NCBI GenBank assembly: GCA_913056525.1
Contig: CAJXLO010000002.1
Coordinates: 69,169-103,641, forward strand
Origin: an uncultured Psychroflexus sp.
GTDB lineage: Bacteria > Bacteroidota > Bacteroidia > Flavobacteriales > Flavobacteriaceae
DNA length: 34,473 nt
Direction: 5' to 3'
This document shows positions 2,722 to 25,687 of the stretch, piece after piece (the stretch's first letter is position 1; every line of letters starts with the position of its first letter). The notes beneath the pieces are model-generated. The model was not told the origin of the DNA. It worked only from the letters and a program-made list of their open reading frames with translations, and made no database searches. The position numbers and the translations under genes were made by a program.

Positions 2722-5316
2722 ATGCGATATTACTTGACTTTATTACTTAGTTTATGTCTTACTTATGCTTTCTCTCAAGAAACAAGGTCGATCATCAATG
2801 GTTATTTTAATGAACATCATCGTAAACATCAGCTAGATGAAGAGGATGTCAGCGAGTTTTCCATCAATGATCAATATGATTCTGAGAGTTTGAATGGTAA
2901 GCATGTTTACATACAACAAACGGTCCAGGGTTATCCAGTATTTAATGCGATAGTTTCAGTACTCATTAAAAACGGGAAAGTAGAAGTGTTCAATTCTTCC
3001 TTTATAAAAGATATTAACGATAAAGTAAGCTCATCAGATGGCTCACCTATGGATGTTACTATGGCCGTGGATGCGGCGTTCGATCACCTGAACCTTGATT
3101 CAACTACACCAACAAGTATAATAGAAAGTAATGAAAGCGGATATTATTCCTTGTCTAATACGGAGATATCAAAGCGTAAAATAAAAGCTAAGCTCATCTA
3201 TCAACCTGTTGATGAACGTAAAGTGTTGCGTTTCGCCTGGGAGGTCACTATAAAACCCAAAGACAGCAATAATTGGTGGAACGTGGCATTAGATGCTGCC
3301 AATGGCGAGCTCTTAAGAAAGCACAATTGGATGTTAACTTGTACTCATGAGCAAAAAGTATCGGCCGGAATAGATATTACTACAGATGGTCAGCACACGA
3401 GCTACATTAAAGGAACAGCTAGCTTTATGAACGCAAGTTATCGAGTATACCCTAGTCCCGTAGAATCACCCAACCATGGAAACCGCAGTCTGATCGTTGA
3501 TCCTGCAGACCCTAGTTCTTCCCCATACGGATGGCATGACCTAGACGGTGTCTCAGGTCCAGAAACTACCATTACGGCAGGGAACAACGTACTAGCCAGA
3601 GAAGATAGGGATGGTAATAATACCGGCGGTTATTCACCAGATGGCGGTCCGAACCTACAATTCGATTTTCCGTTGGACTTTAACCAGCCACCGGAGATCA
3701 ATCAAGATGCGGCCATAACAAATCTATTCTATTGGAACAACATCATGCACGATATCTTTGCCAATTACGGATTTGATGAGGCTTCTGGTAATTTTCAGGA
3801 GATCAATTATTCAGGGAATGGTCAGGGAGGAGATTTCGTGGTGGCTGATGCTCAAGATGGTAGCGGTATCAACAACGCGAATTTTGGTACGCCTCCGGAA
3901 GGTTCTAATCCACAAATGCAGATGTTCCTTTGGTCCGCTCCTGGTGGACCCAGTGATAATTTCATCATCAACTCGCCCCAAAGTGAAGCTGATTCCTTTT
4001 TAGGTGTACCTGCCGGTTTTGGTCCTATTATTTCTTCAACCCCTATCACGACCGATCTTGTTCTGGTGGAAGATGATGATGCTTCAGTTCCCGTTAACCC
4101 AATTGATGCGTGTGATAATTTGATCAACACCAATGAGATCAACGGAAAGATAGCCGTGATAGAAAGAGGGAATTGTACGTTTGTCTCTAAGGTTCAAAAA
4201 GCACAAAATGCGGGAGCTTTAGCGGTGATCATCATTAACAATGTTAGCGGCGATCCCATCACTATGGGAGGAACTTCCAGCTCCATCACCATACCATCGG
4301 TAATGATTTCCCTCTTAGAGGGTCTTCCCCTGATCAATGCACTGCAGAACGACACCGATATCAATGCGACATTAGTGAACAATGGACCTTTTAGAATAGA
4401 TGGCGATTACGATAATGGAATCATCGCCCATGAATATGGACATGGCATCTCAACTCGATTAACAGGCGGAAAAAGTCAGTCGGATTGTTTGTTCAACGAA
4501 GAGCAAATGGGTGAAGGCTGGAGTGACTGGTTGGGTTTAGTGACCACCATGGATTCTAATGACCAGCCGACGGATCCTAGAGGTTATGCTACTTACGCAA
4601 TTGATCAAAGCCCATCTGGTGGTGGTATAAGGCCAGCGAGATATTCTACGAACATGGCGGTCAATCCAGCAACTTATGGTATTACGAACAATGAAAACGT
4701 CATTTCCATGCCACACGGAATAGGCTTTGTTTGGGCTACTATGCTTTGGGACCTGACCTGGGCTTTCATAGACGAGTATGGATTCGATCCTGACCTTTAT
4801 AATGGTAATGGCGGGAACAATATGGCGATGCAGCTCATATTGGACGGAATGAAACTTCAGTCTTGTAACCCGGGTTTTGTAGATGGAAGGGATGCTATTC
4901 TACAGGCAGACCAGCAAATAAACGGTGGTGCGAATTCCTGTTTGATATGGGAGACCTTTGCCGATAGAGGATTAGGTTTTAGTGCCGATCAGGGTTCTTC
5001 ATTGTCCAGAACAGACCAGATAGAAGCTTTTGACCTTCCTCCAGAATGTAGTCTGGGAGTTAATGATATGGATGCATCTTCATTCGCTATTTATCCAAAC
5101 CCTGCAGATCATCAAGTTACTATTGAACTCTCCAATAGTGTCGGGTTAAATGGAGCTGTAACTATCTACTCGCTGAATGGCCGGGAAGTACTCTATAAAA
5201 GCTTAGATGATATTGATGAGGCAAGGGTCAATATCAATAGTTTGTCGACAGGGGTTTACATATTGAAATTAGACGTTCAAGGTCGTTCATTCACGAAAAA
5301 GCTGATAGTTGATTAA
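2722..5316 (+). CDS. Secreted M36 (fungalysin) metallopeptidase with PA domain and T9SS sorting signal
   Basis: The 864-residue product starts with a signal peptide (MRYYLTLLLSLCLTYAFSQ). Next come a fungalysin/thermolysin-type propeptide (about 20-200) and the catalytic region. The zinc site is HEYGH at 570-574, and the third ligand is probably E598 in GEGWSDW, as expected for M36. A protease-associated (PA) domain (about 441-546, with NGKIAVIERGNCTF) is inserted before the zinc motif. The last ~80 residues, starting near FAIYPNPADHQVTIEL and ending KLIVD, are a type A T9SS sorting domain, so the enzyme should be exported and anchored or released at the cell surface. Likely role: digestion of extracellular protein. 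The ABC ATPase gene starts 3 bases after its stop. Confidence 0.93.
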   Translation: MRYYLTLLLSLCLTYAFSQETRSIINGYFNEHHRKHQLDEEDVSEFSINDQYDSESLNGKHVYIQQTVQGYPVFNAIVSVLIKNGKVEVFNSSFIKDINDKVSSSDGSPMDVTMAVDAAFDHLNLDSTTPTSIIESNESGYYSLSNTEISKRKIKAKLIYQPVDERKVLRFAWEVTIKPKDSNNWWNVALDAANGELLRKHNWMLTCTHEQKVSAGIDITTDGQHTSYIKGTASFMNASYRVYPSPVESPNHGNRSLIVDPADPSSSPYGWHDLDGVSGPETTITAGNNVLAREDRDGNNTGGYSPDGGPNLQFDFPLDFNQPPEINQDAAITNLFYWNNIMHDIFANYGFDEASGNFQEINYSGNGQGGDFVVADAQDGSGINNANFGTPPEGSNPQMQMFLWSAPGGPSDNFIINSPQSEADSFLGVPAGFGPIISSTPITTDLVLVEDDDASVPVNPIDACDNLINTNEINGKIAVIERGNCTFVSKVQKAQNAGALAVIIINNVSGDPITMGGTSSSITIPSVMISLLEGLPLINALQNDTDINATLVNNGPFRIDGDYDNGIIAHEYGHGISTRLTGGKSQSDCLFNEEQMGEGWSDWLGLVTTMDSNDQPTDPRGYATYAIDQSPSGGGIRPARYSTNMAVNPATYGITNNENVISMPHGIGFVWATMLWDLTWAFIDEYGFDPDLYNGNGGNNMAMQLILDGMKLQSCNPGFVDGRDAILQADQQINGGANSCLIWETFADRGLGFSADQGSSLSRTDQIEAFDLPPECSLGVNDMDASSFAIYPNPADHQVTIELSNSVGLNGAVTIYSLNGREVLYKSLDDIDEARVNINSLSTGVYILKLDVQGRSFTKKLIVD

Positions 5317-5319
5317 TAA

Positions 5320-6288
5320 ATGCTTCAAATAAATGACCTGAGCTTTGCTTACGAAGATGAAAAGATCATCGACTCTTTGGACCTAAGAGTGGATAAAGGG
5401 AGAATACTGGCCTTAACAGGGAAGAGCGGATGTGGTAAAAGTACACTTGTCTCTTTGATATATGGTTATTTAGAACCAGACCAAGGGAAAATATCCTGGA
5501 ATGGAAAATGGATAAGGCCACCTTCAAAAAAACTCGTTCCCGGCGAAAACGGAGTCAACCTTTTATTACAAGAATCCGACCTGATGCCCTATACATCAGT
5601 TGCCTCAAATGTTAAAAAAAAGCTTTCACGAGCTGAACCAGTGGGAAGTGATAAGCGATGTGATGAACTTTTGAAAGTAGTAGACCTTTTAGGATTCAAA
5701 GAAAGGCTGGTCAAAGACCTTAGTGGAGGTCAAAAGAAAAGAGTATCCATTGCAAGTTCGTTGGCAGATGATCCAGCACTCATCTTACTGGACGAACCTT
5801 TTAACTATATTGATCATCATATCAAGTACGAGCTCAGAAGAAGATTCTTCAGCTATGTTAAAGATCAGGGTATAACTTGCCTGTTCGTAAGTCACGAAAA
5901 AGAGGAATTCCTGTCTTTTGCAGATGAGGTCGCCATTTTATCAGACCAAAGGATCATCAAAAAAGGTCTTCCAAAGGAAGTCTTTGAGAATCCACGATAT
6001 ATCGAAGTAGCTCAACTATTGGATGATGTTAATATCTTATCCTTAGGACCCAAAGCAAAACGAAAAGTAGTAATTTATCCGCACGAGCTCATAATAGGAG
6101 ATGAAAGTGATCATATCTTTAAAGTAAAAGTGCAAAATAGTTTTTACAGAGGTGCTGACCACCTTCATCAAGCTGTTTCCGAAGCTAACAAAAAAATATT
6201 TTTTACAGATCGACATCACTTACCGCATAATTCCATACAATATTTGAAAGTTTCAAATAGTAATGCTTTAAAAAGGTATGTGATCTAA
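5320..6288 (+). CDS. ABC transporter ATP-binding protein without a visible permease partner
   Basis: The 322-residue cytoplasmic ATPase has a Walker A (GKSGCGKST, residues 34-42), a signature motif LSGGQ (134-138), a Walker B (ALILLDEP, about 153-160) and a switch histidine in VSHEKEE. The order and spacing are those of importer-type ABC ATPases. Residues of about 240-322 form an extra C-terminal part resembling a TOBE-like domain (HELIIGDESDHIFKVKVQN), as in FbpC/PotA-type ATPases. It starts 3 bases after the M36 peptidase stop, so the two are probably co-transcribed, though no functional link is known. No permease or binding protein is nearby, so the substrate cannot be inferred. Its stop codon overlaps the stop codon of the convergent dehydrogenase gene. 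Confidence 0.85.
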   Translation: MLQINDLSFAYEDEKIIDSLDLRVDKGRILALTGKSGCGKSTLVSLIYGYLEPDQGKISWNGKWIRPPSKKLVPGENGVNLLLQESDLMPYTSVASNVKKKLSRAEPVGSDKRCDELLKVVDLLGFKERLVKDLSGGQKKRVSIASSLADDPALILLDEPFNYIDHHIKYELRRRFFSYVKDQGITCLFVSHEKEEFLSFADEVAILSDQRIIKKGLPKEVFENPRYIEVAQLLDDVNILSLGPKAKRKVVIYPHELIIGDESDHIFKVKVQNSFYRGADHLHQAVSEANKKIFFTDRHHLPHNSIQYLKVSNSNALKRYVI

Positions 6289-19009: not shown

Positions 19010-19987
19010 ATGAAGCCATCCTTCCTATTGATAACCGCTTTTATCTTTATGGCAATTTCGTGTCATAATAGCAATACAAAGAACATTCCGCCTAATTCTT
19101 CTGGAAGATTGAACAATTTGAATGTGGTCATTGAAAATCAGCATTGGCAAGACACACTGGGTGAGACTATTCGTTCGGTTTTTGCTGCTAATGCAAAAGG
19201 TTTACCACAACAAGAACCTATGTACTCCCTAAGTCAATTACCACCTAGGGTGTTCAATGGGTTCGCCCGAAAGAACAGGAACGTCATCATGATAGAAAAT
19301 GCACCTGAAAAGGAGTTCAAGGTAGTAAAGGATAGTTTTGCAAGACCACAGAACGTTTTACTGTTCAAAGGACCGGACCTGAGTTCCATAGCTCAGGTGA
19401 TCCAGGAAAATCATAAAGAGGCGATCGATATCATCAATAGAACTGAAATAAAGGAAAAGCAAAGAAGGATAAAAAAATCCCCGGAAGATACAGGAAAACT
19501 CCAGGATGAACTAGGTGTCAAGTTACTTTTCCCAACGGCTTACAGGTATGCTAAAGAAGGAGATGATTTTGTGTGGATGAGAAAAGATATCGAAAATGGT
19601 AGCATGGAGTTGTTAGCTTATCAGATTCCGCTAAACGCTATAGATGAGGATGAAAACACCCTTGGAGATATTATTAAGATCAGGGACTCAATAGGGAAAA
19701 AATACGTTCCTGGACCTAAAGAAGGAACTTACTTAGCCACAGATGAGGCTTATGCGCCCTATCTTTTTGAAACTAAAGTAGGTGATAAATTGGCCTATGA
19801 AGTAAAAGGGGTTTGGGATGTGGAAGGCTCATTTATGGCAGGGCCATTCCAAATGCTTATTGTAAAGGACAAAGCCCGCAACAGATACATGATCGTTGAA
19901 GGCTTTGTCTTCAAACCCTCTTCTGCAAAGCGCAATAACATGTTCGAGATAGAATCAATATTGCGTTCCGTAGAATTCGTGGATTAA
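19010..19987 (+). CDS. DUF4837 family lipoprotein
   Basis: The 325-residue product has a lipoprotein signal (MKPSFLLITAFIFMAISC, Cys18). It then matches the DUF4837 pattern seen in Bacteroidetes: NVVIENQHWQDTLGETIRS near the mature N-terminus, QPxY-like YSLSQLPPRVF, and a C-terminal domain with FEIESILRSVEFVD. One conserved segment is EGSFMAGPFQMLIVKDKARN. Function is unknown; the envelope location is inferred from the lipobox. Its stop codon overlaps the stop of the convergent TonB-dependent receptor (shared TTAA), so neither gene has room for a private terminator. Confidence 0.8.
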   Translation: MKPSFLLITAFIFMAISCHNSNTKNIPPNSSGRLNNLNVVIENQHWQDTLGETIRSVFAANAKGLPQQEPMYSLSQLPPRVFNGFARKNRNVIMIENAPEKEFKVVKDSFARPQNVLLFKGPDLSSIAQVIQENHKEAIDIINRTEIKEKQRRIKKSPEDTGKLQDELGVKLLFPTAYRYAKEGDDFVWMRKDIENGSMELLAYQIPLNAIDEDENTLGDIIKIRDSIGKKYVPGPKEGTYLATDEAYAPYLFETKVGDKLAYEVKGVWDVEGSFMAGPFQMLIVKDKARNRYMIVEGFVFKPSSAKRNNMFEIESILRSVEFVD

Positions 19988-22353
19988 AATTCCAAGGTCA
20001 CCCCAGCTAAGAAATTGATGCCTGCCTGTGGATAAAACCTCGCGTTTTCTACTGTTTGTGTCATCCCATTTTCTTGCGTATCGAACGTAAAAAAGTATCC
20101 GTTTGATGCATATTCCGCATCAAAAACATTGTTGATCAAAGCATTGAATCGAATTGTATCAAAAAAACGGATATCTTTAATTTGATACACAAGGTTAAGG
20201 TCCGAATAAAAGAAATCGTCCAGCAATGAAGCTTCACTATCTATATTACTCATGTACTGTTCACCTACATATTTTGAAAGTAAGTTGATCTGAAACTCAT
20301 CAGTAAGCAGGAAGTTCAATTGATTGCCTGCGATGATCTCCGGCGAAAAGGAAATATTAGTATCACCTAACTCCCTGAGTTCACCGTCTATCTGTGCAAC
20401 AAAATCCCTGTTCTTATTGCGGCTCATGGCCACATTTGGCATAATGTTCAGCCAATCTGTAACCTGGAAATTACCATCTACCTCTAAGCCTAAACGATAG
20501 CTTTTACCGCTGGTTTCTCTGATAGGGTTTCCCACATCATCTAACGCACCAGTTAAGACAAGTTGGTCCTGATACTTCATATAATACAAGTTAGCATTAA
20601 TCACCGAAGAGGTAGTTTGGTAACGCCAACCCAGTTCAAAGTCGTCTAACTGCTCTGCTGTGGTAATACCTATCTGAAAATCTTGTCGCCTTGGTTCACG
20701 ATTCGCCCTACCGTAGGAGAAGTATAATTGGTGATTTGCCGAAGCCTGATAGGTCAACCCGGCTTTTGGATTAAAAAAAGTATAGCTTTCACCTACATTA
20801 AACGGGAGCTTCTGGTCGCTAAGTCCGGTAGATTCATAGCTAACATATCTTTCTTGCAGATCGCCGTAAACACTCCACTGATCATCTATCCGCCAGGTAG
20901 CTTTCAGATAGGATGTAAATTCATCTTTTACGCCATTACCATCATAGTAGCGGTCTCTGATCTCGCTATTTCCCGCAAATTCTGACCAGATGACTTCTCC
21001 AAAATGGTCACCATCATATCGGCTAAAAAACACTCCTGCTTTAACATCTAACTGATCGTTTTGATAATTGACATCGCCTTTAATGACATAGTAATCATTG
21101 TCAAGCCAGCGTCTTCTTATCAAATCGGCATTTTCTATATTTTGATTGCCCACATCAACCGGACCTATTTCATGGAAATCCAGGTCAGCATCTTCAACAA
21201 ATTGCTCAAAATACCCACGACCATAAGTATAGTTTAGGCTAAATGAACTCGACCAGTGCTTATCATATCGCTGATTCCAGTGGAGTTGATAGTGATCCTG
21301 GCTGTAATTATCTACTTCATTATCGTAAAAACGCGTATTGCCATCTTCATCTTCATATTGACCGGCCGGATTAAAAGTCCGGTCATCTCTTAAAGTTTCT
21401 TCATCGATCCCGAACCAAGATTGGTAAGTGATTTCCTTTCCGCCAAAGACCAATGCCTTGATCAACGTATTTTCATCTTTATAAGCACCGTGTAAGAAAT
21501 AAGATTTTAGATCAGATGTGGCGCGATCAACATAACCGTCAGATTGGATATTAGATAACCTACCGGCCACTTCAAAATGATCATTGAGCAAGCCGGTGCT
21601 GAACTGCACATTGTGCTTTCTGGTATTAAACGAGCCATAACTATTGCTAATGCTGGCCTGAGCACTATCCTGAACCGCTCGTGTAGAAATGTTCATGCTG
21701 GCGCCAAAAGCTCCTGAACCATTGGTAGAGGTTCCCACACCGCGTTGTAACTGAATTTTATCAACTGATGAGCTAAAATCCTGTAAATTCACCCAAAATG
21801 TGCCCTGGCTTTCCTGGTCGTTATAAGGAATCCCGTTAAGTGTGACATTGACGCGTGTCGCATCGCTACCTCTTACCCGAATACTGGTGTAACCTATGCC
21901 ATTTCCGGCATCAGAGGTTGAAACTACTGCTGGCTCATAACTCATCAAAATTGGGATATCCTGTCCCAGGTTTCGCTTTTGTATCTCTTCGCTTTCAAGA
22001 TTAGAATGGGTAATCGGTGAATCAGCATCAACCCTGATAGATTGCACTAATACTTCATCCAGCGTTTCCGGGGCATCGGCCAGATCAACATTTAATTCAA
22101 GATCTTGATCAAGGTCAATATCGATTTCTTTTCTGTTTCCAAAAGCAAAAACGATAACATATTTACCCTTTGGTAAAGTAAGTCTGTAGTTTCCATTTTC
22201 AGCTGATTTTGTGTTGTACGGCTTACCTTTCGCATAGATGAGCGCATTTGTTACAGGTTTCTGGCCGTTTGTTACTTCACCGCTGATGGTAAATTCTTGA
22301 GCTTGGGTCAATCCGGTTAATAAGATAAAGATGGAAAAAATGACTACTTTCAT
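19984..22353 (-). CDS. TonB-dependent outer-membrane receptor, predicted thiamine-related transporter
   Basis: The 789-residue product has a signal peptide (MKVVIFSIFILLTGLTQAQ) and a carboxypeptidase-regulatory-like domain (about 20-95). The plug starts at about 105-230, with PILMSYEPAVVSTSDAG and the segment SIRVRGSDATRVNVTLNGIP. A 22-strand-type barrel follows, ending in FLAGVTLEF with the C-terminal Phe typical of outer-membrane barrels. Such receptors use TonB-ExbBD energy to import scarce nutrients. The protein family alone does not show the substrate. The substrate prediction comes from the TPP riboswitch and terminator in the 5' leader, as known for the THI-element-regulated OMR1 receptors of Bacteroidetes. 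No SusD-like partner, PnuT or thi gene lies beside it. Confidence 0.93.
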   Translation of the reverse strand: MKVVIFSIFILLTGLTQAQEFTISGEVTNGQKPVTNALIYAKGKPYNTKSAENGNYRLTLPKGKYVIVFAFGNRKEIDIDLDQDLELNVDLADAPETLDEVLVQSIRVDADSPITHSNLESEEIQKRNLGQDIPILMSYEPAVVSTSDAGNGIGYTSIRVRGSDATRVNVTLNGIPYNDQESQGTFWVNLQDFSSSVDKIQLQRGVGTSTNGSGAFGASMNISTRAVQDSAQASISNSYGSFNTRKHNVQFSTGLLNDHFEVAGRLSNIQSDGYVDRATSDLKSYFLHGAYKDENTLIKALVFGGKEITYQSWFGIDEETLRDDRTFNPAGQYEDEDGNTRFYDNEVDNYSQDHYQLHWNQRYDKHWSSSFSLNYTYGRGYFEQFVEDADLDFHEIGPVDVGNQNIENADLIRRRWLDNDYYVIKGDVNYQNDQLDVKAGVFFSRYDGDHFGEVIWSEFAGNSEIRDRYYDGNGVKDEFTSYLKATWRIDDQWSVYGDLQERYVSYESTGLSDQKLPFNVGESYTFFNPKAGLTYQASANHQLYFSYGRANREPRRQDFQIGITTAEQLDDFELGWRYQTTSSVINANLYYMKYQDQLVLTGALDDVGNPIRETSGKSYRLGLEVDGNFQVTDWLNIMPNVAMSRNKNRDFVAQIDGELRELGDTNISFSPEIIAGNQLNFLLTDEFQINLLSKYVGEQYMSNIDSEASLLDDFFYSDLNLVYQIKDIRFFDTIRFNALINNVFDAEYASNGYFFTFDTQENGMTQTVENARFYPQAGINFLAGVTLEF

Positions 22354-22400
22354 TCGATTAGATTTTTTCGAACGAAAGGGGTAAACATTCGCTGTTAAAC

Positions 22401-22430
22401 AAAAAAACCTGATGTATTGTTTACATCAGG
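22401..22430 (-). terminator. Riboswitch-linked intrinsic terminator in the receptor leader
   Basis: On the minus strand a perfect 9-base stem (CCTGATGTA, loop AACAA, TACATCAGG) is followed by seven T's. It lies between the TPP aptamer and the receptor start codon, where the expression platform of a transcriptional OFF switch is expected. Confidence 0.85.
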
Positions 22431-22467
22431 AGTGCTACCTTATATCAACTTTAATAAAAAGCTGACG

Positions 22468-22546
22468 TGTTTCCCTTGGCAACATTATTTGCCCAGGTTC
22501 AACGGGTATGATCTCAGCCCAGATAAAAGATCGGGGCACCCCTTTT
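22468..22546 (-). ncRNA. TPP (THI-box) riboswitch aptamer
   Basis: The minus strand carries, in the right order, the conserved TPP aptamer parts. AAGGGGTGCCCC holds the P2/P3 5' strands; P3 closes GCCC with GGGC; then GGGCTGAGATCATACCC contains the invariant CTGAGA and the P2 3' strand ACCC. GTTGAACCTG follows, then P5 as GGCAA-ATAATG-TTGCC (the loop is the conserved ATAATG), and AAGGGAAA closes P4 (CCT with AGG). These match the pyrimidine- and diphosphate-binding halves of the known fold. A clear P1 helix is not seen. The RNA would bind TPP and control the TonB-dependent receptor downstream. It lies antisense to the upstream region of the GH31 gene. Confidence 0.9.
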
Positions 22547-22555
22547 GAGATAATA

Positions 22556-22563
22556 CAAATATA
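22556..22563 (-). promoter_or_regulatory. Promoter -7 box of the riboswitch-receptor transcript
   Basis: Minus-strand TATATTTG is an exact TAnnTTTG match placed just upstream of the aptamer. The predicted start is near 22550, only a few bases before the first conserved aptamer bases, and gives a leader of about 197 bases to the receptor ATG. No good -33 TTTG is seen. Confidence 0.6.
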
Positions 22564-22612: not shown

Positions 22613-25600
22613 ATGAATTCAAGAATACTTCTATCTAAGATACTTTTTTTCAGCTTTATTTTCACTCAGGCTCAGATAACCGTCACTCCGGAAAATCCTA
22701 CTATTTCTGATAATGTGACCATCACTTATGATGCAAGTCAGGGAAATGCTGAGCTCACAGGTGTATCACCGGTCTATATCCATACAGGCGTGCTGACGAC
22801 AGATAGTCAAAACCCGTCGGACTGGTTTTTTGTAAAAAATGATTGGCCGGTCAACACACCGGATGTAGAAATGCAAGATATGGGCAATAACATCCATCAA
22901 ATATCTTTTCAGATCGATAATTATTATAACCTACCTAATGATGTAACTGCAACAGACCTGGCTATGGTATTTAGGAATGCTGACGGTTCTCTCGTTGGTC
23001 GTGCATCAGATGGTGGTGATATTTTCTACCCGATCTTTCCTGATAACCTGAACGATGACTACGTTTCTCACAGCTTAAACGGTAATCAACTGGTCATTCA
23101 GTCGACCCAGCATCAATACACTGTGCAAGCCTACGCTGATGATATTCTCAAAGTAGGATTTTATGGCGATATCAATGCAAGCATTGACGACAGCTCTAAA
23201 GCTGTTGTTCTGCAACCCTCTAATAATGGCAATGTAAATGATCTTTCAGATAAGTTGATCTATCAAAACGGTACTAATAAAGTAGTTGTAGAAAAAAATC
23301 CTATCACCTTCAAGTTGGTGCGAAATACAGATACGATCCTACGTCATGCAGCAGGATTCTTTAAACAGGGCAATGGCACAAGTTTAAACCTGTCCATTTC
23401 TTCTGATGAAGCGTTTCATGGTAGTGGCATGCGAGCGATAGATCAAAATTTACGAGAACAAAATCTAGCTATCTATAATCAGGCCAACTATGCTTATGAT
23501 CAGGGAGCTAAGAACCTGAACTTCAATGTGCCGTTCTTTGTCTCCACTTATCCTTATGGTTTGTATTTTGACCATCAATTCCCATCGGATATTGCTTTTG
23601 ATCAGGTAGATGATCAAATTAACTATAAACTGGAAGATGGACAGTTGTCGTATTTTCTTCTCGCGGCCGATAATATTCCGGACGTAATGGACGATTATGC
23701 GCAATTAACCGGATATCAACCATTACCACCGCGATGGTCATTAGGGTATATCCAGTCAAAGTTCGGTTATCAATCAGAAACGGAGACCAGGAATGTGGTG
23801 AACCAACTCCAGGCAGAGAACTTTCCAGTCGATGCGATAGGTTTAGACCTGTATTGGTTTGGGCAACCGGATGAAATGGGAAATTTAGACTGGGATAATT
23901 CTGCATTTCCTACGCCGATAGATATGATTAGCGACCTGGAAAATGACGGCGTAAAGACCATCCTGATCACGGAACCGTACATCACTTCCAATTCAACGAA
24001 CTACACATCGGTTATCAACAATGGTGATGTGGGCGTAAATGCACAGGGAAATGCTTATATCATCAATGATTTTTGGGCGGGAACAGCTGTTCTTCTGAAT
24101 TTGATGGACACATCAACACAAGACTGGATGTGGAACTTTTATAAAGACAGGATTAATGAAGGAGTAGCAGGTTGGTGGTGCGACCTGGGCGAGCCGGAGA
24201 ACCATCCATCTGATATGTTCCATAATGGGCAAACCGCGAGGGAAGTCCATAATTATTATTCGCTGGATTGGACAAAAATGCTCTACGAAAAATATGAGAC
24301 CGATTTTCCAGATCAGCGCATATTCAATTTGATCCGCTCCGGTTATGGAGGATCTCAACGTTATGGAGCTTTACCCTGGTCTGGCGATATCAATCGATCA
24401 TTCTCCGGAATGGCCGCACAAATTCCTATCATGATCAATATGGGTTACAGTGGATTAGCTTATATGCATTCTGATATCGGCGGATTTACCGGCGGTGGCA
24501 TGAACAGTGAGCTCTATACCAGATGGATGCAAATGGGTGCTTTTAGCCCGATCATGAGAGCACACGGAGAAGGAATCCCGACAGAACCAACGGCTTATCC
24601 ACAACCTTATAAGGATATCGTACGATCCTTTATCGAGCTACGGTATGAACTGTTACCTTATAATTATTCATTGGCGATTGAGAACAGTTTGACCGGTGCA
24701 CCCATGGTCAGATCCATGGATTATCATTACCCTAATATGGATGGCATGAGCGAAATAAATGACCAGTATCTATGGGGTAGGGACTTTCTAATCGCACCTG
24801 TCTTAACACAGGGAGCAACCTCAAGGTCTGTTGTATTTCCTAACGACCCTAATAATTCGCAAAATTGGATTCCTTATTTTTCTGATGGAGATCTACAGAA
24901 CCCAATAGATGCTCCAATAGATACGATGCCCATTTTTGTTAGAAATGGCGCAATTATACCACATACTGATCTTGTTCAAACTACGGATGACTATAATGGC
25001 GATCAGATTTCATTTCATCATTACAAATTAAGTGACGGTCCATCATCTTGTACATTTTATAATGATGATGGAAGCTCAACAAATACCATTGAGAACGATC
25101 AGTACGAAACTATTACGGTGGACGGTTTTAACACTGGTGGTGCCATATCTTATGATCTCGCGCATAGTGGAAGTTATCCTTCCATGCCTACAAGCAGAAC
25201 CATAGAATTTGTGATCAAGGCCGCAAATAGTACAGCCATAGATTACGTAGAACTAAATGGCAATAATATACCCATTTATAACTCAGAAACAGCATATCAA
25301 AATAATATGCCGGCGGTCTACTACAATGAGACTAGTAATGATCCGCCTAAGGCTAAGTTTACTTGGAATAATTCTAATACCAATTTAACATTTTTCCTAA
25401 ACACATTCGGTACAGACAATAGCAGTGCAGAAGATTTAGTAATCTATCCAAATCCTGCAAAAGACAAGGTCAACATCCAATTATCAGAAAGCTTGAACTC
25501 ATGGAGTAGCCTTAAACTTTATAGTATGAACGGCCAGGAAGTGCATAATTTTAGTAATTCTGATATGAGTAGAACTTCCTCCAGGCTCGCACTTGATCTT

Positions 25601-25687
25601 CCTAAAAATATTAGCAATGGCGTTTATATTCTGAAAATCAACGGAGAAAAAGGAAAACGATCAGCGCAATTAATGATTTCCAGATAA
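22613..25687 (+). CDS. Secreted GH31 family glycosidase with T9SS sorting domain
   Basis: The frame is open from 22508, but I chose ATG 22613. It begins a proper signal peptide (MNSRILLSKILFFSFIFTQAQ) and avoids the antisense riboswitch; the product is 1024 residues. After an N-terminal beta domain (about 22-140) comes a galactose-mutarotase-like domain, then the GH31 barrel (RWSLGYIQSKFGY, IGLDLYWFG). The nucleophile is D524 in WWCDLGEPE and the acid/base is probably D592 in PWSGDINRSF. HSDIGGFTGG and MRAHGEG complete the pocket. A type A T9SS domain starting near VIYPNPAKDKVNI ends the protein. GH31 covers alpha-glucosidase, alpha-xylosidase and related activities; the exact substrate is not decided. 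No SusC/SusD pair flanks it. Confidence 0.9.
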   Translation: MNSRILLSKILFFSFIFTQAQITVTPENPTISDNVTITYDASQGNAELTGVSPVYIHTGVLTTDSQNPSDWFFVKNDWPVNTPDVEMQDMGNNIHQISFQIDNYYNLPNDVTATDLAMVFRNADGSLVGRASDGGDIFYPIFPDNLNDDYVSHSLNGNQLVIQSTQHQYTVQAYADDILKVGFYGDINASIDDSSKAVVLQPSNNGNVNDLSDKLIYQNGTNKVVVEKNPITFKLVRNTDTILRHAAGFFKQGNGTSLNLSISSDEAFHGSGMRAIDQNLREQNLAIYNQANYAYDQGAKNLNFNVPFFVSTYPYGLYFDHQFPSDIAFDQVDDQINYKLEDGQLSYFLLAADNIPDVMDDYAQLTGYQPLPPRWSLGYIQSKFGYQSETETRNVVNQLQAENFPVDAIGLDLYWFGQPDEMGNLDWDNSAFPTPIDMISDLENDGVKTILITEPYITSNSTNYTSVINNGDVGVNAQGNAYIINDFWAGTAVLLNLMDTSTQDWMWNFYKDRINEGVAGWWCDLGEPENHPSDMFHNGQTAREVHNYYSLDWTKMLYEKYETDFPDQRIFNLIRSGYGGSQRYGALPWSGDINRSFSGMAAQIPIMINMGYSGLAYMHSDIGGFTGGGMNSELYTRWMQMGAFSPIMRAHGEGIPTEPTAYPQPYKDIVRSFIELRYELLPYNYSLAIENSLTGAPMVRSMDYHYPNMDGMSEINDQYLWGRDFLIAPVLTQGATSRSVVFPNDPNNSQNWIPYFSDGDLQNPIDAPIDTMPIFVRNGAIIPHTDLVQTTDDYNGDQISFHHYKLSDGPSSCTFYNDDGSSTNTIENDQYETITVDGFNTGGAISYDLAHSGSYPSMPTSRTIEFVIKAANSTAIDYVELNGNNIPIYNSETAYQNNMPAVYYNETSNDPPKAKFTWNNSNTNLTFFLNTFGTDNSSAEDLVIYPNPAKDKVNIQLSESLNSWSSLKLYSMNGQEVHNFSNSDMSRTSSRLALDLPKNISNGVYILKINGEKGKRSAQLMISR

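Follow-up and report, generated by a model that had tools for sequence, protein, structure and literature searches.

The minus strand of a 34,473-nucleotide (nt) stretch of DNA from an uncultured Psychroflexus sp. (contig CAJXLO010000002.1, positions 69,169 to 103,641; the whole stretch is here called the window) carries a leader of the thiamine (THI) type ahead of a gene for a TonB-dependent receptor, and raises the question of which compound such a leader senses and how it acts on the receptor. An earlier note, made from the letters of the window, had taken it for a conserved thiamine pyrophosphate (TPP) aptamer followed by a terminator. The THI-type leader, the terminator, the receptor with its TonB plug and barrel families in Pfam and a thiamine-related role were all supported here, but two defining parts of a TPP aptamer were missing. 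The reading preferred here, with a probability of about 0.6, is that the leader is a riboswitch of the THI lineage lacking helix P1 and the pyrophosphate pocket, and that it would control a TonB receptor whose substrate is thiamine or a closely related compound. Judged by sequence, the core (P2, P3, T-loop, P4, P5 and loop L5) is kept, and the elements downstream of it are conserved and complementary.

A THI element below the Rfam threshold

With the RF00059 model of the TPP riboswitch, Infernal gave the match foreseen by the earlier note at 22455-22553 of the minus strand (36.8 bits, E 9.2e-6, 401 bases searched), though it fell short of the gathering score, 54.3 bits, at which the standard scan of the window returned no match. 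No family besides RF00059 was seen between 22300 and 22700 with Rfam up to an E value of 1. This element was the single RF00059 match in the whole draft genome (1.97 Mb, 80% complete). Matches occurred in 55 of 60 relatives, and 53 of the 73 loci, own genome included, precede a homologue of the window receptor (blastp E ≤ 1e-20). The gathering score was exceeded at 2 of these 53 receptor loci versus 18 of the 20 other loci. The THI element of the window is real, beyond a chance match.

All conserved blocks listed previously are present on the minus strand in the order given: GGGGTGCC (22542-22535), CTGAGA (22517-22512), ATACCC (22509-22504), TTGAACCTG, GGCAA/TTGCC around ATAATG, and AGGGAA (22476-22471). 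The aptamer, without P1, spans 22471-22542, its structure being counted on 28 relatives. P2 pairs 22541-22539 with 22506-22504, P3 is also present, the T-loop is the CTGAGA block, and P4 pairs 22497-22495 with 22476-22474. The pyrimidine pocket (P2, P3 and T-loop CUGAGA) is kept, as are P4 and P5 with the UNAU docking loop L5, the docking itself being predicted from sequence. In the alignment to RF00059 every P1 pair was non-standard, and the internal loop of the P4-P5 arm had lost one base from either side, exactly at the joining segments J4-5 and J5-4, such that the consensus ACCUgAU...CGuAGGGA reads ACCUGG...CAAGGGA in the window; the sub-gathering score follows from these two departures. 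Both the closing helix P1 and the J4-5/J5-4 loop carrying C77 and G78 are absent. In the TPP riboswitch crystal structures, as presented in PMC3764141, G60, C77 and G78 bind one of two metal ions coordinating the pyrophosphate, and of the three only G78 contacts the pyrophosphate directly.

The pyrophosphate loop is closed in the arm at 22474-22497, where P4 is followed by a G22494.A22477 mismatch and then by P5 (GGCAA/TTGCC) with L5 ATAATG. At the normally open position, the 28 aligned relatives (rows chosen by RF00059 and GGGGTG) have a base pair, G-C in 14, A-U in nine, G-U in two and C-G in one, and two are unpaired; 10 of the 28 rows were altered on both sides of this pair (alignment columns 58-73). 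For the structure as a whole, four of five measures lay above all 500 shuffles, and the fifth, pairs changed on both sides (8 versus 6.7), was equalled in 80 of the 500. The alignment thus indicates that the J4-5/J5-4 loop is closed into a longer P5 and not misaligned.

The description as a conserved TPP aptamer needs correction on these two defining parts, which are also absent from most receptor leaders examined. With P1 and the pyrophosphate loop gone, TPP repression cannot be assumed; of the earlier proposal that the receptor imports thiamine or a precursor under low TPP, the thiamine-related role stands. As two defining features of RF00059 are missing, the element is filed as a THI-lineage variant with no ligand assigned.

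Distribution of the form without the pyrophosphate loop

The comparison took in 211 distinct aptamers, drawn from the relatives, from a sample of the phylum and from named genomes (235 parsed records, unparsable L018 not included, less 24 duplicates). The loop was absent in 146 of the 177 leaders of window-type receptors (blastp 1e-10), hereafter called pocket-less, and was kept in 32 of the 34 aptamers not assigned to the receptor, which include several without an identified gene. Since pocket-less leaders were used to build the sampling model R1 and the sample leans towards them, 146/177 counts what was examined and is neither a census nor a frequency. P5 was extended in this comparison as far as pairing allows, G-U included. 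Motifs resembling CTGAGA and GG[GA]G are required by the parser, which also looks for UNAU in scoring L5; the counts of CTGAGA (146/146) and L5 (144/146) are therefore partly of its making, and reliance is placed instead on the 28-row alignment, where CTGAGAT does not vary and the L5 columns hardly do. In one of the 146 (L069, genome G033) the parser misplaces GGGG, and this leader is wrongly counted in the tests of the 5' strand.

R1 matched in 144 of 196 genomes of the order, a few matches being ordinary aptamers such as that at thiC of G048, and the THI pattern was present in 61 of 80 named receptor loci. The spread of R1 matches, the covarying helices and a downstream hairpin pattern found once each in 28 of 60 relatives (see below) make it very improbable that the element is a decayed, functionless riboswitch remnant, for which its sub-threshold Rfam score would speak. 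The synthesis gene thiC was found in 9 of the 60 relatives, and its search in the draft genome of the window (80% complete) found none, so that the variant occurs both with and without it.

The 14 leaders of receptor homologues from outside the class all keep the loop, these homologues being just 24-38% identical, and the leader of Bacteroides finegoldii, read by eye, keeps it as well. On a quick receptor tree of 132 rows, which carries a warning for long branches and uneven composition, the loop state changes at least three times on starred branches and eight times by parsimony; taken from this tree, the loop state is one that changed more than once.

It is possible, if short of probable, that TPP is still bound by a remodelled arm, its pyrophosphate held by other groups, and that the switch works as first described. 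The invariant CTGAGAT and nearly invariant L5 of the aligned relatives would fit such a sensor, as would the first J4-5 base, G in 119 of the 146 pocket-less leaders; in the same genomes thiC and salvage genes retain ordinary aptamers, from which it follows that TPP control is normal in these organisms. However, 146 of 177 receptor leaders have lost C77 and G78, whereas other aptamers keep both, and 14 genomes of the RF00059-searched relatives set hold a pocket-less receptor leader together with an ordinary aptamer elsewhere. The loop has, moreover, turned into a helix with covarying pairs, and the eight changes of the quick tree, at least three of them forced by starred branches, are subject to the warning given above. 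For the preferred reading, a compound with the thiamine pyrimidine is the most likely ligand, TPP being less certain than for ordinary members; TPP, its pyrophosphate-free form (thiamine) or a precursor may be bound.

Two of the 34 other aptamers are pocket-less. One (L260, G170:C78, minus strand) precedes another TonB receptor (908-2827, 639 aa), which gave no match to the window receptor at 1e-10, and the variant may thus control a second transporter in one family. The other (L211, G130:C1:3999501-3999577) is THI-like with a possible 9-bp P1, has no matching gene behind it on its strand, and may be a remnant or a small RNA. In the genus of the window, ordinary TPP aptamers stand before a thiE/tenI-like gene (L007, L008, L014-L016, L019, L021, L073), with a gene for a ThiY-like binding protein next in order (both named by eye); this context suggests pyrimidine salvage in place of thiC.

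Loss of P1, the 5' tail and the promoter box

A P1 of at least 5 bp was found in 11 of the 146 pocket-less leaders, 9 of the 31 pocket-keeping receptor leaders and 30 of the 34 other aptamers. Compared with re-paired strands, mean P1 was barely raised in the pocket-less leaders (2.62 versus 2.50, standard deviation (sd) 0.07), somewhat raised in the pocket-keeping ones (3.84 versus 3.40, sd 0.19) and clearly raised in the other aptamers (5.32 versus 3.81, sd 0.20).

Upstream of the aptamer of the window lies a 5' tail, ATCTC (22547-22551, minus strand), complementary to GAGAT of the T-loop (22515-22511) and of a kind rare in ordinary TPP aptamers. At least five contiguous pairs between the tail and GAGAN were possible in 133 of 146 pocket-less, 9 of 31 pocket-keeping and 6 of 34 other leaders; at a threshold of four pairs the numbers were 141, 24 and 21, and the contrast was smaller. 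A UCUC tail placed just before GGGG was seen in 121 of 146 pocket-less leaders versus 3 of 31 and 1 of 34. The GAGA of the T-loop could be the partner of this tail, a pairing whose covariation is undemonstrable because GAGA is invariant.

Further upstream, TATATTTG (22556-22563) matches TAnnTTTG, the consensus of the flavobacterial -7 box, and 13 nt separate it from GGGG (22542-22539). A TAnnTT[TC]G box was present in 138 of 146 pocket-less leaders, at a median of 14 nt before GGGG, and in 19 of the 34 others. The position of the transcription start was rejected as the cause of P1 loss: the box distance is similar in P1-keeping leaders (median 14 versus 12 nt), and lack of room is therefore not the cause.

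Terminator, hairpin A and start-codon helix

From 22563 to 22351 of the minus strand the order is box, ATCTC tail, aptamer, terminator, loop hairpin and receptor ATG. The intrinsic terminator (22401-22430) has a perfect 9-bp stem, CCTGATGTA-AACAA-TACATCAGG, followed by seven T's, and the receptor ATG (22353-22351) comes after it, as had been noted. GCACTCC (22429-22435), a putative antiterminator partner, is complementary in 7 bases to GGGGTGC of the aptamer (22542-22536), and GCACUCC/GGGGUGC was the best duplex of the aptamer strand within the window leader (p 0.017 versus shuffles). In the window genus and some neighbours the terminators usually have ACUCC or CACCCC as 5' foot, complementary to GGGGUG; terminator-like hairpins, some of them unconvincing, were found in 52 of 165 leaders. 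As an antiterminator, ACGTCAG (22468-22462) with a terminator arm was rejected, most of its bases being predicted to fold into a hairpin of their own.

A second layer, overlooked before, follows the terminator; it consists of a CCCCUUU loop with complementarity to the aptamer and of a helix covering the start codon. Hairpin A (CGAATG-TTTACCCCTTT-CGTTCG, 22369-22391, stem arms CGAATG/CGTTCG) has a loop, ACCCCTTT (22382-22375), that is complementary to AAAGGGGT of the aptamer (22545-22538). Helix B (TTTCGTTCGA/TCGAATGAAA, 22348-22377) would bury the ATG; it shares bases with the CCCCTTT element and cannot form together with hairpin A.

A hairpin with a stem of at least 5 bp and C[CT][CT]C in its loop, 22-56 nt before the ATG, was found in 101 of 119 pocket-less leaders (mean of shuffles 9.9, maximum 16). 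The C-run loop is complementary to the aptamer strand, AAAGGGGU facing ACCCCUUU in the window. Among the bases flanking this pairing (154 leaders, 35 without a qualifying loop), positions 1-3 were paired in 107, 107 and 90 of 119 versus 96.6, 93.1 and 79.0 expected if independent; family f8 (L026, L028, L176, L183) has C before GGGG and G after CUCC, where most others have A and U. A degenerate hairpin pattern, GAATAATNRCCCCTTTTATTCG with 2 mismatches, occurred exactly once per genome in 28 of the 60 relatives, its reversed control once in 60. Twenty-six of the 28 matches lie beside a known receptor aptamer, and the remaining two (G026, G038) are receptor leaders missed by the RF00059 search, stricter filters having been used in genome searches spanning more than 40 genomes. 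The genome of the window gave no match to this pattern, its own hairpin differing by more than 2 bases.

A start-codon helix at p ≤ 0.05 was found in 84 of 120 pocket-less versus 4 of 29 pocket-keeping leaders, the start codons having been picked by a signal-peptide rule that is wrong in some cut or long loci. By inspection, 50 distinct start-codon helices (p ≤ 0.02) show compensatory changes, ACGAAUG/AUUCGU, AUCAUG/CGUGAU and UAUGAAG/CUUCAU being types among them. The bias of this helix towards pocket-less leaders, and a UCUC tail that can occlude the P2/P3 pocket, would also suit an aptamer that no longer senses a small molecule, the tail, the long-range pairing and the start-codon helix alone making, for example, a growth-rate, temperature or protein-controlled switch. 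We regard this as unlikely, as a pyrimidine pocket and an L5 that are almost invariant in the aligned relatives are hard to explain without a ligand.

Folding energetics and the proposed switch

Energetics were scored for 104 of 149 leaders. In the 93 pocket-less ones, nested folding gave the long-range fold a median advantage of 1.5 kcal/mol over the aptamer fold, and opening of the start region cost 8.8 kcal/mol in the aptamer fold versus 6.5 in the long-range fold; the expected sign was obtained by more than 0.5 in 83 and the opposite one in four. The 11 pocket-keeping leaders showed no difference (2.4 versus 2.4), the expected sign occurring in three. For the window leader the cost was 8.5 kcal/mol in the aptamer fold versus 3.2 in the long-range fold, and its unconstrained fold was the long-range fold.

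In the proposed switch, the ligand-free aptamer strand AAAGGGGUGC would pair first with GCACUCC, taking the CC at the foot of the terminator and permitting read-through. It would then pair with the ACCCCUUU loop of hairpin A, a detail that we infer, and this would weaken the start-codon helix and allow translation. Docking of the ligand in the P2/P3 pocket would close the arms and hold GGGG in P2, upon which the terminator and the full start-codon helix would form and the receptor would be off. Control in this direction, with the ligand turning the receptor off, is likely on the modelled energies.

Several observations weigh against this switch. The start codon of the window leader stays mostly paired in both states, even in the computed long-range fold (probability of being unpaired 0.03-0.06), and hairpin A seems weaker than helix B; the loop pairing combined with stem A is a pseudoknot, which lies outside the scoring of the folding program. 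Of the 29 pocket-keeping leaders, 13 have the CYYC loop as well (shuffles 3.9, maximum 9), so that the element may predate the loss of the pyrophosphate loop and is not tied to it. The fourth flanking base is paired in 32 of 119 leaders versus 42.9 expected, and covariation of the long-range helix comes mainly from one family, with the right sign and small. Duplex tests on single leaders were weak, most p values being 0.05-0.2, because the shuffles retain the C runs; at least 7 pairs were reached in 112 of 119 leaders but also in 82.5 of 119 shuffles. Shuffling with RNAduplex leader by leader was thus too weak as a test of the long-range helix and was replaced by the hairpin-loop test. Pairing of at least two AUG bases, seen in 117 of 120 pocket-less leaders, is shared by 16 of the 29 that keep the pocket. 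Finally, the OMthi transcript of Bacteroides thetaiotaomicron is described as unresponsive to thiamine (PMC5613172); a relative in Bacteroides, however, has the pocket in its ordinary form, and control there could act on translation.

A more specific proposal, advanced only tentatively, is that the THI RNA without the pocket forms a riboswitch type of its own, sensing a pyrophosphate-free thiamine compound (thiamine, thiamine monophosphate or hydroxymethylpyrimidine, HMP), by which import would be controlled apart from TPP-controlled synthesis. Without ligand, the UCUC tail would cover the T-loop, AAAGGGG would kiss the CCCCUUU loop and the start codon would be open.

The receptor and its neighbours

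The receptor gene (19984-22353, minus strand) encodes 789 aa of OMR1/OMthi-like type, and its TonB plug and barrel were confirmed by Pfam (PF00593, PF07715, PF13715). Among the best 80 loci, the nearest named relatives belong to Mesohalobacter halotolerans (69%) and Psychroflexus species (60-66%), all of the Flavobacteriaceae. By tblastn a homologue with 41.7% identity over 88% of the protein was found on a Bacteroides finegoldii plasmid, where it heads an annotated receptor-pnuC-thiamine diphosphokinase operon. Because of this homologue the window receptor is probably an OMR1/OMthi thiamine receptor; the similarity supports thiamine as substrate, with a precursor as the alternative, and points to thiamine independently of the RNA, contrary to the statement that the protein alone would leave the receptor unassigned. 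That record (L261, NZ_OY725919.1, 86 kb, labelled as a B. finegoldii plasmid) holds a whole thiamine uptake operon. A search of the PDB with the receptor gave no match at 1e-3 and so no structural hint of the ligand. Mutants of B. thetaiotaomicron without synthesis and either OMthi or PnuT are reported to have severe growth defects below 100 nM thiamine (PMC5613172).

The receptor is alone on its strand and stands alone in the window, as had been observed: Pfam names no thi gene and no thiamine permease among the 24 window proteins, two of which have no family. The sole part of ABC type in the window is an ATPase at 5320-6288 with no assigned substrate. Thiamine pyrophosphokinase (PF04263) gave no match in the own genome (80% complete), from which nothing follows, as 7 of 14 control genomes likewise go unmatched by the model. 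The sole PnuC match of the draft genome (L263, G000:C10) adjoins a gene resembling, by eye, a NadR-type kinase; with such a neighbour, this PnuC is improbable as PnuT.

The divergent neighbour (22613-25687, plus strand) is, by Pfam, a GH31 glycosidase that bears a type IX secretion tail. Its open reading frame as listed begins at 22508, inside the aptamer on the opposite strand, and the in-frame ATG at 22613 is the likelier start. At 2722-5316 (plus strand) lies an M36 fungalysin-type metallopeptidase, also carrying a type IX secretion tail.

Comparison with known systems

TPP elements before OMR1/OMthi receptors have been published for Bacteroides (PMC5613172), and PMC10881298 describes two clusters from Flavobacteriales in which omr1 has an element nearby, detected with RF00059. 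For Flavobacterium psychrophilum, a thiamine-type regulatory RNA found with Rfam had its expression confirmed in PMC9723704, where its gene is not named. In the vitamin B1 literature the compound taken up via omr1 is still listed as unclear (PMC12442306), and the working of a TPP riboswitch in bacteria without Shine-Dalgarno sequences is called uncertain in PMC5613172. Neither a THI aptamer lacking the pyrophosphate loop nor such a start-codon switch was found described in the literature searched, subscription papers being mostly outside its reach. The variant would have stayed hidden because it falls short of the Rfam threshold: of the 53 receptor leaders from the own genome and the relatives, 51 are sub-gathering. 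If the ligand has changed, the RNA would be a widespread relative of a well-known riboswitch with new specificity, and would show which thiamine compound these bacteria import; even if TPP is bound, a start-codon switch is suggested, fitting bacteria without Shine-Dalgarno sequences.

With the TPP riboswitch (RF00059) the window leader shares P2, P3, the T-loop CUGAGA, P4, P5, L5, the order of parts and the thiamine-receptor context; it differs in having no P1, no J4-5/J5-4 loop, a sub-gathering score and a 5' UCUC tail complementary to the T-loop. The HMP pyrophosphate (HMP-PP) riboswitch, or thiS motif, which likewise regulates thiamine genes and senses a thiamine precursor, has another architecture, its aptamer being embedded in the terminator as described in PMC6478431; in Rfam, where presence of the thiS motif was not checked, the window leader matches only RF00059. 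OMR1/OMthi of B. thetaiotaomicron (BT2390), for which PMC5613172 reports a thiamine uptake phenotype, is likewise a TonB receptor under a THI element, whereas the window receptor is alone, with no pnuT or kinase adjoining, and under a pocket-less RNA. In E. coli thiM, as presented in PMC11751092, the ligand-free aptamer strand likewise pairs with a hairpin that lies downstream, close to the start codon; the window leader would differ from it in using the 5' strand AAAGGGG, the loop of a hairpin and the AUG itself.
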